Position numbers and translations under genes: made by a program. The notes beneath the pieces were generated by a model. The model searched no databases and had not been told where the DNA came from. It was given only the letters and a program-made list of their open reading frames with translations. Below, in pieces: positions 42,992 through 51,746 of a stretch of DNA of 51,746 nucleotides. This DNA comes from Actinomycetota bacterium (lineage in GTDB: Bacteria > Actinomycetota > Actinomycetes > Actinomycetales > Microbacteriaceae), in the NCBI GenBank assembly GCA_018268515.1, contig JAFDWK010000026.1:1-51746 (forward strand). The letters run 5' to 3'. Position 1 is the stretch's first letter; each line of letters opens with the position of its first letter.

Positions 42992-43338
42992 TGGAACTCA
43001 GGAACACCGACCGTCGCAGCTGCGTCCCGCTGCCCGACGTCATCGCCGCAGCACCGCACGCTGAGCACCTCTTCACGACGGACCTGCTTGAGCGCCGACG
43101 CCCGTCGATCCCACCGTACGGGCCGCAAAGAGTTTCGCGTGACTCCGTTCCCTACGGGTGCGGCAAGGGCTTGTCGATTGCCGCACCACCTCTGAAAACC
43201 ACTGATCACTCCAAAGTTTTCCGCGAGGTCCTCGCCGCTGCCCGCGGTCGTCAATTGGGGGATCATTTGGGGATCAATTGGACCGCAAAGGATGCCGACG
43301 GCTCGCGACGCACGCGCGGAGGTGATCGACGTGGCTAG
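42991..43338 (+). CDS. Small unknown ORF between xis and rep
   Basis: A 115-residue frame that starts with ATG coupled to the xis stop and ends inside the start of rep. The N-terminal 45 residues read normally (MELRNTDRRSCVPLPDVIAA) but the C-terminal part passes through the iteron-like repeats and looks non-coding. It may be real only in its first part, or be spurious. I give it low weight. Confidence 0.35.
   Translation: MELRNTDRRSCVPLPDVIAAAPHAEHLFTTDLLERRRPSIPPYGPQRVSRDSVPYGCGKGLSIAAPPLKTTDHSKVFREVLAAARGRQLGDHLGINWTAKDADGSRRTRGGDRRG
43251..43281. repeat. Iteron-like repeats before rep, candidate replication origin
   Basis: TCAATTGG occurs at 43251-43258 and 43274-43281, and GGGGATCA at 43258-43265 and 43269-43276 (11-base step). 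Direct repeats just upstream of rep resemble the Rep-binding locus of rolling-circle replicons of the pMV158 type. No nick hairpin is obvious within this stretch. Confidence 0.5.
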
Positions 43339-44911
43339 GAACGAGAACAACCCGACGATCATCGGCATGACGCAGTACCTTGAACCGGCATACTGGGCGT
43401 GGGCCGCGCACGACCCGAATGCCGCCTCGGTGCTCCAGCAAGGTGCCGCGCCGATCCTGACGCAACTCGTCGCTCAGCTCGAAGACGGCGGCTGCACTGT
43501 GACAGAGGCGTACGGCATCGTCCACGACAAGGACGAACGCGAGGTATGGAACGACCAGCGTCAAGCGCTCGTCATCGAGCCCAAGCCACCGCACATCCAC
43601 GTCGTGATCAAGTTCGCGGGTCGAGCGCAGAGCGCGCCGATCGACCAGCTCGCTCGCCTTCTGGGCGTCGAGGCGCAGTATGTCGAGAAACCCGGCCGAG
43701 GTGGCCACGCGTACGACAACATCCTCGCGTACCTCACCCACGCGAAGTACGCCGACAAGCATCAGTACGACCCGTCCGAAGTCGCGACCGCGCGCGGCCC
43801 GGAGTACCTCGGGGTCGACGCGGCGCGACGAGAGACCTGGTTGAAGGGTCGAGCCCACGTGAAGCAGAAGCGCGTCACCGAGGACTTCGAAGCGTTCCGC
43901 GAGCTTGTTCTGCAGGGCGAAGTGACCAGAGATCAGATCATGCTCACCGACGAGTACTTCGACATCTACTCGCGCCGATCCCGCGAGATCGACGATGCGC
44001 TGTCGGCGTACGGCCAGCGGCGAGCTTACCGCGCCGCCGCGAAGCTGCGAGCCGGCGAGTTCTCGACGCAGGTCGTCTTCGTCTATGGGCCCGCTGGCGT
44101 CGGCAAGACACAGTTCGCGAACTGCTTCATCTCGGAGGCCATCGCCTTCGCGTCTCAGCACGGGGAGCGGTGGCAGCTGTATCGCGCCGCGACCGCAAAC
44201 CCGCTCGACGACTGGCAGGGCGAGGAAGTCATGCTGCTCGATGACCTCCGTGCCTCAGCGATGGATGCCAACGACTGGCTGCTGCTGCTCGACCCGCACA
44301 ACGCCTCCCCCGCGAAAGCGCGCTACCGGAACAAGGGCGAGGTCGCGCCACGGCTCATCGTGATCACCGCGACGATCGAGCCTGTCGAGTTCTTCTACTA
44401 CGCGCGTAAGAAGGGGGAAGTCGACGAAGCGCTCGATCAATTCATCCGACGGCTCGCCTCGATTGTCCGGGTCTTCCGCGCAGACGACGTCCTCCGCTAT
44501 CGCGTACAGCGCATCGGCCGTGTCGCGCCGTATACCCAGGAGATCACGACTGGCGACAGCAGATGGGGGTCGATCAAGACCGCAGTCGCGCTGTCACAGG
44601 GTGCCGTCTCCACGACCGACCACTCGTCCGGTGGCGCAGTTGCTGCACTATTGTCCGAGACGGCCAGGCACAACCGTGATGTCCCATTTGCATCCACTCC
44701 GGGCTGGCCCGAACTCGAGGCCTTGGCGATCGATGAGGAGAACGCGTCGACGATCTCCCGATTGGAGGCCGAGCTCGCCGCGCTCCGCCCGGCCGAGGTA
44801 TCCATCGACGGTCGCGACATCCTGAGTGAGGTCATCCGTCGAGCCGGCGAGGACGGCCGACTCACCCGCGGGATGCCGTGGGATGACGAGGCCGATTGGA
44901 GCAGGGAATGA
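43331..44911 (+). CDS. rep: HUH-endonuclease/SF3-helicase replication protein
   Basis: A 526-residue replication initiator. The N-terminus is a Rep_2-like HUH endonuclease: YGIVHDKDE (motif 1), PPHIHVVIKF with H88 and H90 (metal site), and AYLTHAKY with Y134 or Y140 as the nicking tyrosine. After residue 250 comes a helicase of the SF3 type, with Walker A GPAGVGKT (G253 to K259) and EEVMLLDDLRA as Walker B. The pairing is that of CRESS-like bacterial replicons. The start is a GTG at 43331 preceded by GGAGGTGATC, better than ATG 43292. It is followed by the mobilization region. Confidence 0.9.
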   Translation: MARNENNPTIIGMTQYLEPAYWAWAAHDPNAASVLQQGAAPILTQLVAQLEDGGCTVTEAYGIVHDKDEREVWNDQRQALVIEPKPPHIHVVIKFAGRAQSAPIDQLARLLGVEAQYVEKPGRGGHAYDNILAYLTHAKYADKHQYDPSEVATARGPEYLGVDAARRETWLKGRAHVKQKRVTEDFEAFRELVLQGEVTRDQIMLTDEYFDIYSRRSREIDDALSAYGQRRAYRAAAKLRAGEFSTQVVFVYGPAGVGKTQFANCFISEAIAFASQHGERWQLYRAATANPLDDWQGEEVMLLDDLRASAMDANDWLLLLDPHNASPAKARYRNKGEVAPRLIVITATIEPVEFFYYARKKGEVDEALDQFIRRLASIVRVFRADDVLRYRVQRIGRVAPYTQEITTGDSRWGSIKTAVALSQGAVSTTDHSSGGAVAALLSETARHNRDVPFASTPGWPELEALAIDEENASTISRLEAELAALRPAEVSIDGRDILSEVIRRAGEDGRLTRGMPWDDEADWSRE

Positions 44912-45275
44912 GCGCGCGGTTCGAGGTGGGGATCGGGCGAGTTCGGCGTCCGACCGTTGCCCGCGAAGCGGGCGCCGCCCTCCGCAGGAGCCCCGACGAT
45001 CTGGAGCGCAGCGAGAGATTGTCATACGGGGCTAAGACAAATCTTTGTCGCCTGGCTCCGATGGGCCCACGTCGACGGCTATGCCCGGCGATGAGGGAAG
45101 GTGGCAGGCGGCGGAGATTTGTCGCGTCGGCGCAGCGAGTGGAGAGGCGAAGCCGGAGGCTCCACGCGATGGGACGACGCCATCTATCGGCATTCACGTG
45201 CCGAGGGGTCCTCTGCCCGACGAGTGCTCGGGGGTGCTGCGAACGCAAGTGGCGCGACGCGGGAAGGAGCTGCGC
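44912..45275. other. Rep-mob intergenic region, candidate oriT
   Basis: The 364 bases between rep and mob carry several repeats: GACAAA-TC-TTTGTC dyad (45036-45049); TTTGTCGC at 45044-45051 and 45118-45125; GCGCAGCGAG at 45006-45015 and 45130-45139; and a GTGGAG ... CTCCAC hairpin (45139-45165). MobV-type relaxases act at an oriT directly ahead of their own gene, so it is the natural place. An ATG at 44908 overlaps the rep stop, but its frame looks non-coding. Confidence 0.45.
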
Positions 45276-46748
45276 ATGAGCACCATCACGGGACATGCGG
45301 CATTCCACCTGTCCAAGAACAGTCCGAGGCATTCGGGCACGCCGTCGGGCACCAGATCGCAGCGGCGCGCGCTGTTGAAGGAGTCGATGCGGCATCTCGA
45401 CCCGAAGGACGTCGCGCGTCACGCCGCGAAGAACGCGAGTATCGTCTCCGCGGATACGCATCTCAACATCGCGTACGTGAACGACGGTTCCGGTGGGTTC
45501 CGTGTCGTCTCGACGGTCAAGGAGGTTCTTGCGTACGGCGATGCGCGCGAGGCACGCGTCCGTCGGAAGATTGCTGAAGGGCAGAGCACCGTCAGTCTGT
45601 TCGTCGTCCACCTGCCGAAGACCCTCTGTTTCGAGGAAGAGGACTTCTACCCGCGGCACAATGCCGACGGATCACAGCGACTCGATCCGATCACGGGCCG
45701 GCCGATGAGCCGATCCAGATGGATCGCGCGCGACCAGAGCGAGGCGATGAGGTACTTCGCCGACGCCATCGCCTTCCTCGGCGACAGTGTGATCCCCGGC
45801 GGCCACGACGCGATCCATGGATGGGCGACGAACTTCGATGAGACGACGCCGCACATCCAGCTGATGGCTGACCCGTTCGCCATCGACCCGAAGGCGCCAG
45901 CCACGGCACCCGACGCGCTGCGCACGGAGCAGAACCAGGCCTACGGTTCGCATCGCGAGACACGAGGGCTCGACGGCAAGCAGATCAGCGGCAACGAGAA
46001 GATGCGTCAGTACCAAGCGCTGATGCGGGCGCACATGGTCGGTCGCGGCTGGCCAGTTGAAATCGAGCCGGGAGAGCGCCACGGGAGGGGGCAGAGCAAG
46101 AGTGAATACGAAGCCACTCAGGACGCGAAAGCCGACGCGGCCTCCCTGCATGCGGCTGCATCCGCGGCTGAGGCACGCGCCGATGACACCCACGCGGCCG
46201 CGCTCAGCATCCACGAGACCGCCATCGATCTCGTTTCTGACGCGATCGAGGCCATGCAGGTCGCTGAAGTGGAGCGGCGACAGGAGATGGAGGAGACGCG
46301 TGAGGAACTCTACGGTCAGCTGGGCGTCGAGTACGCCGAGCTTCGCAAGAAGCACGCCCAGGTCGATGATGTCCTCGATATCGAACGCCGGATGATGGCC
46401 GCCGATCGCACGAAGGAGCAAGCCGAGCACCAACGTGCAGTGGATTCGCTGACCGCGCAGACCGGCGTGGCGCTCGCCCGCGAGCGGGCCGCCGACGAGC
46501 GGGAGCGCGAGGCGGATGCCCGACGAGCGGAGTTCAATCGCAAGGTGTCTGACGCGCGCGAGCTGTTCGCCGCGGCGCAGGAGCTCGGTCGCCAGACCGT
46601 CGAGCTCGCCAGGGCGAACAAGGTCCGCTTGACGCTCCCAAACGGGTCGATGCTCAAGCAGGCGCGGTCGGCCCACGATGAGCTCGTGAGTCGACTCCTC
46701 CGCAGCGACGAAGTGAGCGGGCACCACAATCGAAATCTCGAGCTTTGA
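45276..46748 (+). CDS. MobV-like plasmid recombination/mobilization relaxase
   Basis: A 490-residue Pre/Mob family protein. The relaxase domain covers about the first 270 residues: HLNIAYVND (motif 1), FVVHLPKT, then HGWATNFDETTPHIQLMAD around H193 (motif 3). The C-terminus from about residue 290 is a long coiled coil (ADAASLHAAASAAEARADDT to ERAADEREREADARRAEFNR). It should nick oriT and pilot DNA transfer with a helper conjugative system. The ATG at 45276 has AAGGAG seven bases before it. In motif 3 a Gln (195) stands where other Mob proteins have the second His, and the position before FDE is Asn. Confidence 0.82.
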   Translation: MSTITGHAAFHLSKNSPRHSGTPSGTRSQRRALLKESMRHLDPKDVARHAAKNASIVSADTHLNIAYVNDGSGGFRVVSTVKEVLAYGDAREARVRRKIAEGQSTVSLFVVHLPKTLCFEEEDFYPRHNADGSQRLDPITGRPMSRSRWIARDQSEAMRYFADAIAFLGDSVIPGGHDAIHGWATNFDETTPHIQLMADPFAIDPKAPATAPDALRTEQNQAYGSHRETRGLDGKQISGNEKMRQYQALMRAHMVGRGWPVEIEPGERHGRGQSKSEYEATQDAKADAASLHAAASAAEARADDTHAAALSIHETAIDLVSDAIEAMQVAEVERRQEMEETREELYGQLGVEYAELRKKHAQVDDVLDIERRMMAADRTKEQAEHQRAVDSLTAQTGVALARERAADEREREADARRAEFNRKVSDARELFAAAQELGRQTVELARANKVRLTLPNGSMLKQARSAHDELVSRLLRSDEVSGHHNRNLEL

Positions 46749-46932: not shown

Positions 46933-47538
46933 GTGACGAACAACCCGCGCGTGCTCATCGTGCTCGACGTCGACGGCACCATCAGTCCGCTACCTCCGCC
47001 AGATGGCGGCAGTGAGCCGGCATTCGCGACTCCCGTCGAGGATCGCGTGATCGGTGCGCTTTCGGAAGTCGCCGAACGAGACGACGTCGCGGTCGCCTGG
47101 GTCACAACCTGGTCTCCCAGGATGCTCCGTTGGCTGATCGATGAGCGACTCGGTCACAGGCTCGACGGCCCGCACATGGGCGACGGAGTCGACCGGACAC
47201 GCGGATGGCGCGCCCGGGCCGTTGCGAATGCGGTCGCCGCCGTCGGCGCCAGCGCGGTCGTGTGGATCGATGACATGGCGGTGCGCACGACATTGGAGCG
47301 GGCCATCGAACGCGCCGCGCTCGACGTCGACATGCTTGTGATTCGTCCTGAGCGCTACACCGGCGTCACCCTGCGGCAGGCCCAACGGGTGCGGCGATTC
47401 ATCGAAGGTCTCGACGCGCGCGATGGCTATCTCGAAGACACGGTCCGCACCCAGACGCACGCAAAGCATGGAGTCCGCCCGGCGGGCACGGCCGCAGAGT
47501 ACTCAAGCCTCCATCCCCGATCGAGCATGGTCAGGTAG
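46933..47538 (+). CDS. HAD-like phosphatase
   Basis: A 201-residue protein of the haloacid dehalogenase fold. Motif I is LDVDGTIS (D12 nucleophile, D14), motif II is VTTWSP, and VVWIDDMA near residue 115 serves as motif IV. Motif III Lys/Arg is not obvious. It probably hydrolyses a small phosphate ester, or is a nucleic acid 5'/3' phosphatase relative. Starts with GTG at 46933 and has GGAGG just before it. Its final 112 bases overlap the convergent gene, so one of the two ends is perhaps shorter in reality. Confidence 0.7.
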   Translation: MTNNPRVLIVLDVDGTISPLPPPDGGSEPAFATPVEDRVIGALSEVAERDDVAVAWVTTWSPRMLRWLIDERLGHRLDGPHMGDGVDRTRGWRARAVANAVAAVGASAVVWIDDMAVRTTLERAIERAALDVDMLVIRPERYTGVTLRQAQRVRRFIEGLDARDGYLEDTVRTQTHAKHGVRPAGTAAEYSSLHPRSSMVR

Positions 47539-50041: not shown

Positions 50042-50248
50042 GCCCGTCACCGTAGGCGTCGACCAGACGAGATCGACGTACCGGGCACCCCCTCTCGTGC
50101 ACAAACCGGAGGGCGATCCTCATAGATCAGGATGAATCCACCCCAACCGCCTCGGCACGACACGCCGTCGCGGCGCTGGAGGTTCCACCATTCCCTTTCG
50201 CGATCGCGCGTGATCACACTGTCGTATCCCACCGCTAGTGTCACGAGC

Positions 50249-50572
50249 GTGAGACTCGAGATCACGACGACCCCACGCGAGACCCTGGTTTGGGCACCGA
50301 CCGCACAGGCGGCCGCAAGGTTGCGGAAGCTCCTCACCGACTCGGGCTGCCTTGTCCTGGAGGCGGACCCCTCGGAACTTGACTTCGTCGATCGGGTTCC
50401 GGACCACGAACGTGAGGAGTTCGATCCGGCGCGCATCATCGACGTTGAGATCGGCGCCGAGGCCTACGAGTCGCTGACCGCGCTTGCGAAGGCCGGACAC
50501 GAGCTTCGGTGGCATCGCTGGCAAAGCGATCAGACCGTTGACCACGTGTGGGGCGTGCCGATCACTCCTTGA
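50249..50572 (+). CDS. Small unknown protein with a leaderless start
   Basis: A 107-residue protein of no recognised family (RLEITTTPRETLVWAPTAQA, AYESLTALAKAGHELRWHRW). TAGTGT (50236-50241) lies seven bases ahead of the GTG at 50249 and fits a leaderless promoter, so I prefer it to the ATG at 50132. It ends 82 bases ahead of the promoter of the ncRNA. Confidence 0.55.
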   Translation: MRLEITTTPRETLVWAPTAQAAARLRKLLTDSGCLVLEADPSELDFVDRVPDHEREEFDPARIIDVEIGAEAYESLTALAKAGHELRWHRWQSDQTVDHVWGVPITP

Positions 50573-50654
50573 CCCGTAAGCACGCGGGGCGTACGGTCTC
50601 GGGAGGCGACGGGAGCGCGCGATCCAGGTTCGCCAAGAAACCGCTGGGAGGTCG

Positions 50655-50684
50655 TTGACCGATGTCGGCGCCGACGGCTAGGGT
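50655..50684 (+). promoter_or_regulatory. Promoter of the Abi-associated RNA
   Basis: TTGACC (50655-50660), 18-base spacer, TAGGGT (50679-50684). Transcription would start near 50691, at the base of the hairpin RNA. Confidence 0.65.
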
Positions 50685-50690
50685 AGTTAC

Positions 50691-50760
50691 ATAAACACCA
50701 GTCCCTCTGTCTCTCACTGACTTTCGAGTCGCCGAGATGACATGGGCTGGTTTTCTTTTT
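50691..50760 (+). ncRNA. Structured small RNA upstream of abi (abiF RNA-like)
   Basis: A ~70-base RNA folds into one long bulged hairpin of 20 base pairs: ACCAG(697-701)/CTGGT(747-751), CCC/GGG (703-705/744-746), TGTC/GACA (708-711/739-742), TCTC/GAGA (712-715/734-737), GACT/AGTC (719-722/727-730), closed by a TTCG tetraloop; the numbers are the last three digits of 50xxx positions. TTTTCTTTTT follows as a termination tract. It has its own promoter and ends seven bases before the abi start. Structured RNAs of the abiF class are known directly before Abi_2-type genes. An alternative is a long terminator for the upstream gene. Confidence 0.7.
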
Positions 50761-50767
50761 CGCCAGA

Positions 50768-51730
50768 ATGGATAGCGTGAAGGTTCACCTGTCCTACGAC
50801 GACCAGCTTGCGAAGATGCTCGGTCGTGGGCTCGTGACCACCGATCGCCCAGCCGCGATCGCCGCTCTCAAGCGCATCGGCTACTACCCGCTCTCGGCCT
50901 ACACCTACCCGTTCCGCGAGCCAGCAACAGAAGCGGACCTTGCCGCAGGCCGGACGCGGGCGGAGATGTTCCGCGACGGGGCAACCCTCGAGGACGCGCT
51001 GCGGCTGTACGAGTTCGACAGCAAGCTGCGTGCAGTGGTGCTTCAGGCGCTGCAGGAGATCGAAGTGGGGTTTGCGACCAAGGTCGGGTACGTCCTGGGC
51101 AAGCGAGCCGGCGATGGACATCTGCGTCTCGATTGTCTGGACGCGACGACGGCGTCAAGACTGAACTCAGAGGGCGAGACTGCACACGCCGTGTGGGTTC
51201 GGCGTTACGAGAAGCTACGACAGGATGCCAAGGACGAGGAGTACGTCAAGCACCATCTCCTCCACTACGGCGGTGAGATCCCGATCTGGGTCGCGACGGG
51301 CTTCATGGATTTCGGGTGCCTGATCCGCCTGTACTCCCTGATGGACAAGCGTGACCGCAAGAAGATCGCCTCCGAACTTGGTCTCAGGGGAAACGGTACG
51401 GACACGCTGTCCCGCTGGCTTCGCGCGCTCAACATCCTCCGCAATCATTGCGCGCACAACAACCGCATCTGGAATCGGGCGACGGTGGATGTCCCGCCCA
51501 AGTTCGCCGATCAGGTCGCGCCGACACATCTCCGCCATCTGAATGAGTTGGACAATGACCAACGCCAGAAGATCTACCTACTGCTGGCGCTCACCGCGCA
51601 TTTGGATCGTGCGGTGAATCCGTCAAGCACATGGGCGTGGTCCGCACTCCCGACGCAAGCCAAGAAGTTCGGCAACGTTGGTGGCATGACACTCGAGAAC
51701 ACGATGGGATTCCCCGCGGGCTGTGTTTAG
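50768..51730 (+). CDS. Abi_2 family (AbiD/AbiF-like) abortive infection protein
   Basis: A 320-residue protein of the Abi_2 family, which protects cells by shutting down growth on phage attack. The opening DDQLAKMLGRGLVTTDRPAA and IGYYPLSAYTYPF, then YEFDSKLRAVVLQALQEIEV are typical, as is the HEPN motif RNHCAH with R225 and H230 (RxxxxH), pointing to ribonuclease activity. The ATG at 50768 follows the RNA terminator by seven bases and has no clear ribosome binding site, so translation may depend on read-through or an internal promoter. It is the last complete gene of the window. Confidence 0.88.
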   Translation: MDSVKVHLSYDDQLAKMLGRGLVTTDRPAAIAALKRIGYYPLSAYTYPFREPATEADLAAGRTRAEMFRDGATLEDALRLYEFDSKLRAVVLQALQEIEVGFATKVGYVLGKRAGDGHLRLDCLDATTASRLNSEGETAHAVWVRRYEKLRQDAKDEEYVKHHLLHYGGEIPIWVATGFMDFGCLIRLYSLMDKRDRKKIASELGLRGNGTDTLSRWLRALNILRNHCAHNNRIWNRATVDVPPKFADQVAPTHLRHLNELDNDQRQKIYLLLALTAHLDRAVNPSSTWAWSALPTQAKKFGNVGGMTLENTMGFPAGCV

Positions 51731-51746
51731 CCGGGGCTTCGGGTAG

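Follow-up and report, generated by a model that had tools for sequence, protein, structure and literature searches.

The window, by which we mean the whole stretch of 51,746 nucleotides analyzed here, probably carries near its end a type III-like toxin-antitoxin defense unit of the AbiF kind, in which the antitoxin is an RNA of a class outside the Rfam model of abiF RNA. This reading is based on the intact HEPN motif of the predicted toxin, the homology of the toxin to the solved chain 8vz6, a conserved hairpin with changes on both sides of its pairs, an architecture shared by nearly all Abi_2 loci compared and the agreement between hairpin class and protein tree. A preliminary description of the same DNA had proposed a two-part RNA-protein unit, a proposal that is supported by the anatomy, conservation, covariation and linkage of the locus.

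Anatomy and conservation of the locus

The features identified, all on the forward (+) strand, are as follows.

50655..50684, +, promoter of the RNA, TTGACC-18-TAGGGT (sequence reading; TTG and TANNNT in 5 of 5 loci including the window)
50691..50760, +, predicted small RNA (fold z -3.76; hairpin identity across five loci; covariance model R1)
50697..50751, +, hairpin of 21 pairs (fold; both-side changes)
50697-50704/50744-50751, +, outer helix of the hairpin
50705-50707 (CUC)/50743 (U), +, internal loop CUC/U of the hairpin
50708-50715/50734-50742, +, middle helix of the hairpin, with one bulge
50718-50722/50727-50731, +, apical helix of the hairpin
50723-50726, +, UUCG loop of the hairpin, closed by a U-A pair
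50752..50760, +, U tract, intrinsic terminator tail between the RNA and the toxin gene (sequence; 91% mean identity in five loci)
50768..51730, +, HEPN toxin gene of the Abi_2 / AbiF-AbiD family, 320 amino acid residues (PF07751 1.2e-45; PADLOC AbiD; 8vz6)
51440..51457, +, HEPN motif RNHCAH, R225-H230 (intact; alignment of 24 proteins)

Direct reading confirmed the promoter previously described before abi, with a -35 box TTGACC at 50655-50660, a spacer of 18 bases and a -10 box TAGGGT at 50679-50684. The predicted start of the small RNA was placed 7 bases past the -10 box and its end within the U tract. Positions 50691-50770 folded as a single long hairpin of -26.3 kcal/mol (z -3.76), and none of 200 shuffles was equally stable. 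The hairpin of the preliminary description was thus found again, with 21 pairs (8+8+5) by the fold instead of the 20 originally counted; its TTCG loop, its T-rich end and the seven bases between the end of the U tract and the ATG at 50768 agreed with sequence and fold. A generic promoter and terminator scan called neither this promoter nor this terminator at the locus, owing to the weakness of the -10 box and to a long, interrupted stem that falls outside the rule of the scan. Therefore, the case against chance rests on the fold and the conservation. No direct repeats were found in 50655-50767 and no repeat array in 50560-51746.

The protein scored 156.5 bits against PF07751, whose curated cut-off is 25.6, and matched the PADLOC AbiD model with an E value of 1.2e-50. 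A phmmer search returned solved chain 8vz6 as one structural homolog (3e-16), and no NCBIfam model matched the protein at E 0.01. The motif RNHCAH satisfies the HEPN pattern R(phi)xxxH, and R225, N226, A229 and H230 were invariant in all 24 aligned proteins. By analogy with its relatives, the Abi_2 product is probably a toxic HEPN RNase that cuts RNA. Consistent with the preliminary description, in which the abi frame had no visible ribosome binding site, no Shine-Dalgarno-like purine run was seen upstream of ATG 50768. This ATG may not be the true start and GTG 50777 may serve instead, because a stop closes the frame in L033, L034 has GTG at the position of the ATG, and all five loci have GTG 50777. 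Purifying selection acts on the protein, with dN of 0.12–0.14 between the window and its relatives, for which dS is saturated and the ratios are rough. The window protein has 320 residues as compared with 326–327 in its four nearest relatives; it terminates in GCV where they run on, being 6–7 codons shorter at the C-terminus (51710-51730), and a Cys replaces a nearly invariant Trp. Because of the missing last 6–7 residues and this replacement, the window copy of the toxin may be impaired. The contig stops 16 bases past the gene.

The four loci most closely related to that of the window, with protein identities of 79–83%, were from Microbacterium testaceum, Microterricola pindariensis, Leucobacter chromiireducens and a Leifsonia, which belong to different genera, and they were compared with the window as a five-locus set. 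The mean pairwise identity in this set was 33.1% in the 91 bases that precede the -35 box, 59% for the promoter stretch, 89.6% for the hairpin and 72% for the first 90 bases of the gene; the hairpin DNA was therefore better conserved than the coding DNA. Aligning the upstream regions of homologs, a check proposed earlier, thus showed that promoter and hairpin are conserved and that the DNA beyond the promoter is unrelated. Since conservation begins at the promoter, the upstream gene lies outside the unit, and since the upstream DNA is unrelated between loci, the hairpin does not belong to a conserved upstream gene as its terminator.

Compensatory base changes in homologs, whose absence had been named as evidence against the unit, were found in alignments of 5 and of 13 sequences. 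In the five sequences, changes on both sides occurred at 3 of the 21 pairs, which 12 of 500 shuffles reached; the covariation score (169 of 500 shuffles) and the proportion of cells that were paired (88 of 500) were not exceptional in so few sequences. Among 13 window-type RNAs (8 adjoining Abi_2 and 5 alone), the outer helix was paired in every sequence, and 11 cells showed both-side changes, which 0 of 500 shuffles reached, in an alignment whose four phage rows were picked by a pattern fixing most letters of the 5' arm, which leaves the 3' arm of these rows as the independent part. Counted by pairs, the both-side changes in the same alignment amounted to 3, which is not exceptional (49 of 500 shuffles). 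Two weaker members, L090 beside Abi_2 and L138 from a phage, are omitted from this alignment. In addition, unpaired letters of the hairpin were also kept among the window-type RNAs, which a terminator does not need, and several relatives were without most of the apical arm.

With regard to the wider context, the preliminary description had called the unit element-borne, for which the support is weak. Positions 43292-44908, in the region about 4–7 kb upstream, code for a replication protein that has Rep_OBD and helicase domains, and the MobV match of the ORF at 45045-46748 is below the cut-off (27.9 bits vs. 100). Judged from these genes, a mobilizable element around 43292-46748 is plausible. 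Positions 46933-47538 of the window encode a HAD domain of the RNA-repair type (HAD_SAK_2, 1.7e-07).

Hairpin classes beside Abi_2 genes

No Rfam family reached its gathering score in the window. The search with the Rfam abiF covariance model (RF03085), which had been suggested as a check, gave no match in 50560-50800 at E values up to 10, and the 241 bases around the hairpin had two unrelated weak Rfam matches at E up to 10, neither of them abiF. Similar to RF03085 abiF RNA, the window RNA is a hairpin that ends in a T-rich tail and directly precedes an Abi_2 gene; different from it, the window RNA has another internal loop and a longer arm. The earlier idea of a distinct actinobacterial member was thus supported. 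On sequence grounds, the window RNA represents a class missed by the Rfam abiF model and tied to its own branch of the toxin tree.

Abi_2 homologs were found in 48 of 299 Microbacteriaceae genomes and in 18 of 394 genomes of a class-wide sample, the genome of the window being included in both counts. A hairpin with a T-rich tail precedes nearly every Abi_2 gene whose start is in view; sorted by eye, these hairpins fall into about a dozen sequence classes. By a fixed rule, which was chosen after the loci had been seen, a stem with tail was present at 62 of 64 actinobacterial Abi_2 loci with the start in view (including the window and its four near relatives), and at 60 of the 64 a TANNNT box was also found 14–20 bases before the stem. 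L037 and L045 failed the rule on the hairpin, and L051 and L052 on the -10 box. Abi_2 matches with an alignment starting after residue 12 are omitted from the count, as are L002 (the same locus as L032), the match in genome G020 and L078-L083. The corresponding numbers for control ORFs, from which 50 others were excluded because an RNxxAH motif made them possible Abi_2 genes, were 29 of 183 for stem with tail and 4 of 183 when a -10-like box was added; for dinucleotide shuffles of the same DNA they were 45 and, with a TANNNT box, 3 of 640.

RF03085, searched with strict filters, exceeded its cut-off in 6 of the 48 homolog-bearing Microbacteriaceae genomes, each time directly upstream of Abi_2. 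Only weaker matches with E values up to 10, several of which adjoin Abi_2, were found in 11 more of these genomes. Thus, the described abiF RNAs occur in Microbacteriaceae, and most of the Abi_2 loci read in this family, including that of the window, carry other classes.

The hairpin classes followed the relationships of the proteins. On a tree of 68 proteins, built by a quick method and including L078-L083, the hairpin class needs 14 changes for 13 groups (the minimum is 12), with four class-less rows pooled as one group; one of these rows, L081 from phage phiC2, does bear an RF03085-like hairpin. Shuffled class labels needed 49.9 changes on average, and none of 200 shuffles was as low. The window class (5 rows) formed one side of a branch with an SH-aLRT value of 100, and its neighbors were two proteins whose hairpins are shortened versions of it, with 98 for the joint branch. 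Part of this agreement is expected because adjacent DNA is co-inherited. That the hairpin class tracks the protein branch is nevertheless consistent with matched binding, as far as sequences can indicate it, and points to a joint diversification of RNA and toxin; the resulting cognate and non-cognate combinations would lend themselves to work on specificity close to where the Cas13 lineage is proposed to have its root.

Several Abi_2 loci depart from this pattern. L022 has an RF03085-like hairpin at 1344-1379 (28.8 bits, below the cut-off), followed by a class D hairpin at about 1429-1475 and one Abi_2 gene. No such hairpin was found in the 200 upstream bases folded for L080 and L083, the Abi_2 genes from plasmid records. 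In L083 (175-3873), the Abi_2 gene is flanked by the S and R genes of a type I restriction system.

Mode of action and alternative explanations

The closest tested counterpart is the AbiF-RCd22 pair of Clostridioides difficile, which like the window has an Abi_2 HEPN protein with an R...H motif and a hairpin RNA directly upstream. According to the part of the report available to us, the C. difficile protein is toxic and replacement of the HEPN R and H removes its toxicity; the upstream RNA binds AbiF and neutralizes it in cis and in trans; breaking the stem of the RNA abolishes the activity, whereas compensating changes do not; and RCd22 also reduces abiF expression in cis (PMC12373285). As described there, RCd22 has its own start site and terminator and yields mostly a short transcript, features that are predicted for the window, but it contains two RF03085 motifs, different from the one long hairpin of the window RNA (PMC12373285). 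The homolog of phage phiC2 shares 28% identity with the window protein. Chain 8vz6 is the PbAbiF-ncRNA structure according to a figure legend of a review, in the accessible part of which one RNA is bound per monomer of the HEPN dimer of PbAbiF and the RNase is inhibited (PMC12737573). The resemblance to this PbAbiF-AbiFr complex (PDB 8VZ6, Zilberzwige-Tal et al.) is a matter of homologous proteins, compared by protein sequence alone. Similar to ToxIN and other type III toxin-antitoxins, the window has RNA and toxin gene in one unit with a predicted terminator in between. Different from ToxI, which is a tandem-repeat pseudoknot, the window RNA is one hairpin without repeats. ToxN is not known to be a HEPN protein.

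By comparison with these relatives, the promoter of the unit would produce a short hairpin RNA that mostly terminates at the U tract, and read-through of the terminator would yield the toxin mRNA, keeping the RNA in excess over the protein. The rigid hairpin with its CUC/U internal loop would bind the AbiF HEPN dimer and block the RNase. If a phage shut down transcription or depleted the RNA, the toxin would be released, cut RNA and stop growth. Of the three roles of the hairpin suggested previously, namely to guide, inhibit or activate the HEPN protein, inhibition is by far the best, given the RNA antitoxin of C. difficile in the available part of its report (PMC12373285) and the lone phage RNAs described below. 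If so, the range of this experimentally tested type of RNA antitoxin would include an actinobacterial class not recognized by the public model.

Four other explanations of the hairpin were considered. That it acts in cis only, as a leader terminator limiting abi transcription with no protein binding, is unlikely. The U tract does end seven bases before the gene, and the accessible text on RCd22 describes a decrease of abiF expression in cis (PMC12373285), but an attenuator would not explain why the hairpin is better kept than coding DNA, why unpaired letters that a terminator can spare are kept as well, or why RNAs of the same classes stand alone in phages, where no abi gene to attenuate was found. 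We give still less credence to a terminator of the upstream ORF 50132-50572 that is unconnected to abi, which has hardly any chance of being correct: the hairpin begins about 125 bases past this ORF and has a U tract, but the upstream DNA is only 33% identical between loci at which promoter, hairpin and abi stay together, and the same arrangement recurs at 60 of the 64 Abi_2 loci.

A guide function, in which the hairpin would direct the HEPN nuclease to targets as a crRNA directs Cas13, is very improbable. It owes its appeal to the descent of Cas13 from AbiF-like proteins, as proposed in the accessible parts of two papers (PMC12165695; PMC12737573). Different from Cas13 of type VI CRISPR systems, the window protein has one HEPN motif in 320 residues rather than two domains, and it has no array. 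Moreover, the hairpin is 90% identical across the five loci, contains no spacer-like stretch and is not accompanied by a repeat array at the locus, and most of its apical arm is missing in several relatives, so the guiding role suggested by the preliminary description was not retained. We regard as similarly remote an RNA that senses infection and activates the protein instead of inhibiting it by default, since the tested relative in C. difficile inhibits, as stated in the part of the report available (PMC12373285), and since an activator would be of no obvious benefit to phages bearing lone copies. Such lone RNAs without a toxin are what a trans-acting antitoxin predicts.

Lone RNAs in bacterial genomes and phages

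Model R1, a covariance model of five window-type RNAs, gave 15 matches at E up to 1 in 398 genomes of the family, of which 10 were at E under 0.05. Six of these ten were beside an Abi_2 frame, two of them being members of the model and one being beside a fragment. Another match, in genome G697 (92% complete), had its own -10 box in a genome with no PF07751 match. The remaining three of the ten look like chance; the R1 matches L091, L092 and L093 look like chance or unrelated structure. Since R1 scores the reverse strand of window-type hairpins at 22–26 bits, scores near this range, as obtained for classes C and C', phage Ascela and L090, are no proof of kinship. The wider model R2 found an additional lone copy in G118, which is not among the homolog-bearing genomes and has no Abi_2 in the 3 kb around the copy, and a weaker lone copy in G509, a genome with an Abi_2 homolog on another contig. 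The other R2 matches look like ordinary terminators or coding DNA.

In IMG/VR, the first window-type pattern had 0 hits. A looser pattern, in which the leader and 5' arm were specified at most positions and the pairing 3' arm was left free, had six hits, of which L096, L097, L099 and L100 fold into a window-type hairpin with a TANNNT box before the leader; a third pattern returned L096 and L097 again. No PF07751 match was found in the whole records of these four. L097, L099 and L100 are phage-like, because terminase and portal genes lie near the RNA, and L096 has only weaker phage-family matches. The hits L098 and L101 had no hairpin and were taken as chance. A search for viral contigs that code for a close relative of the window protein gave 3 matching stretches, none of which was confirmed.

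Patterns for the other classes hit 1 locus of class C, 16 of class B and 13 of canonical abiF in IMG/VR, with no Abi_2 at 1 of 1, 8 of 16 and 12 of 13, respectively; the class C' pattern had 0 hits. Thus, hairpins of AbiF RNA classes occurred without Abi_2 at 25 of 34 IMG/VR loci (36 hits minus the two chance ones), four of the 25 being of the window type, in records that may be fragments and with PF07751 possibly missing very distant toxins. PF07751 was present in 8 of the 35 whole records, in agreement with the counts by locus. The 25 lone loci are L096, L097, L099, L100, L102, L104, L105, L108, L110, L113, L115, L116, L118-L121 and L123-L131, of which L115/L118, L123/L124 and L127/L129 are near copies. 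A tRNA gene is within 15 bases of nine of them and at 100 bases from two more. The outer helix is shortened in the canonical lone loci L119, L121 and L126.

Short queries against named phages matched 2, 66, 1 and 3 records. In all seven phages examined (L133-L139), namely Mycobacterium phage Thibault, Acinetobacter phage Acj61, Aeromonas phage T7-Ah, Synechococcus phage S-SZBM1, Salicola phage CGphi29, Arthrobacter phage Ascela and Curtobacterium phage Olliecat, the hairpin was intergenic by annotation and PF07751 was found nowhere in the record. The RF03085 cut-off was exceeded in Thibault, Acj61, T7-Ah, S-SZBM1 and CGphi29. Ascela is the weakest example (match at E 0.9, low R1 score). In some other listed phage records, a hypothetical ORF is annotated across the hairpin, and the sole class C match of the named-phage queries, MT835574, adjoins an Abi_2 homolog.

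These lone phage RNAs are the more surprising part of the results as compared with the pair in the window. A lone antitoxin RNA would be useless to a phage as an attenuator and useful as an inhibitor of a host toxin. From this we infer, with a little more belief than doubt, that phages of many hosts carry lone AbiF-type RNAs, the window class included, as trans-acting decoys that disarm AbiF, and that AbiF proteins and RNAs are split into matching classes, of which phages copy that of the host. The weakness of the Ascela example has slightly lowered our estimate of this reading. If true, phages would counter AbiF by means of RNA, in parallel to pseudo-ToxI and the RNA anti-CRISPRs. According to the accessible parts of the respective reports, phage phiTE uses pseudo-ToxI to mimic the antitoxin against ToxIN (PMC3475682), and Racr are solitary phage-borne RNAs against CRISPR-Cas (PMC10651486). 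Similar to Racr, the lone RNAs would be copies of a defense-system RNA in viral genomes; different from Racr, which act on CRISPR-Cas, they would act on AbiF. Since the lone RNAs of isolated phages are short, sequenced and predicted to belong to given classes, a direct test of RNA decoys is possible.

Our literature search, whose scope lay largely outside subscription papers, found no proposal of phage abiF RNAs as anti-AbiF decoys. DNA of Lactococcus phage sk1 reportedly, by the title of a paper, protects phage 712 from AbiF. RF03085 had no match in the whole sk1 record, so for the RF03085 class sk1 gives the decoy idea no support. An abiF sRNA has been reported in cyanophage S-CREM1, along with three phage entries in Rfam, and the part of that report available to us does not propose blocking of AbiF (PMC9964418). 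Finally, the Thibault locus (L133, 2881-2962) also has a match to DUF3800-IV RNA below the cut-off (42.9 bits vs. 60.7).
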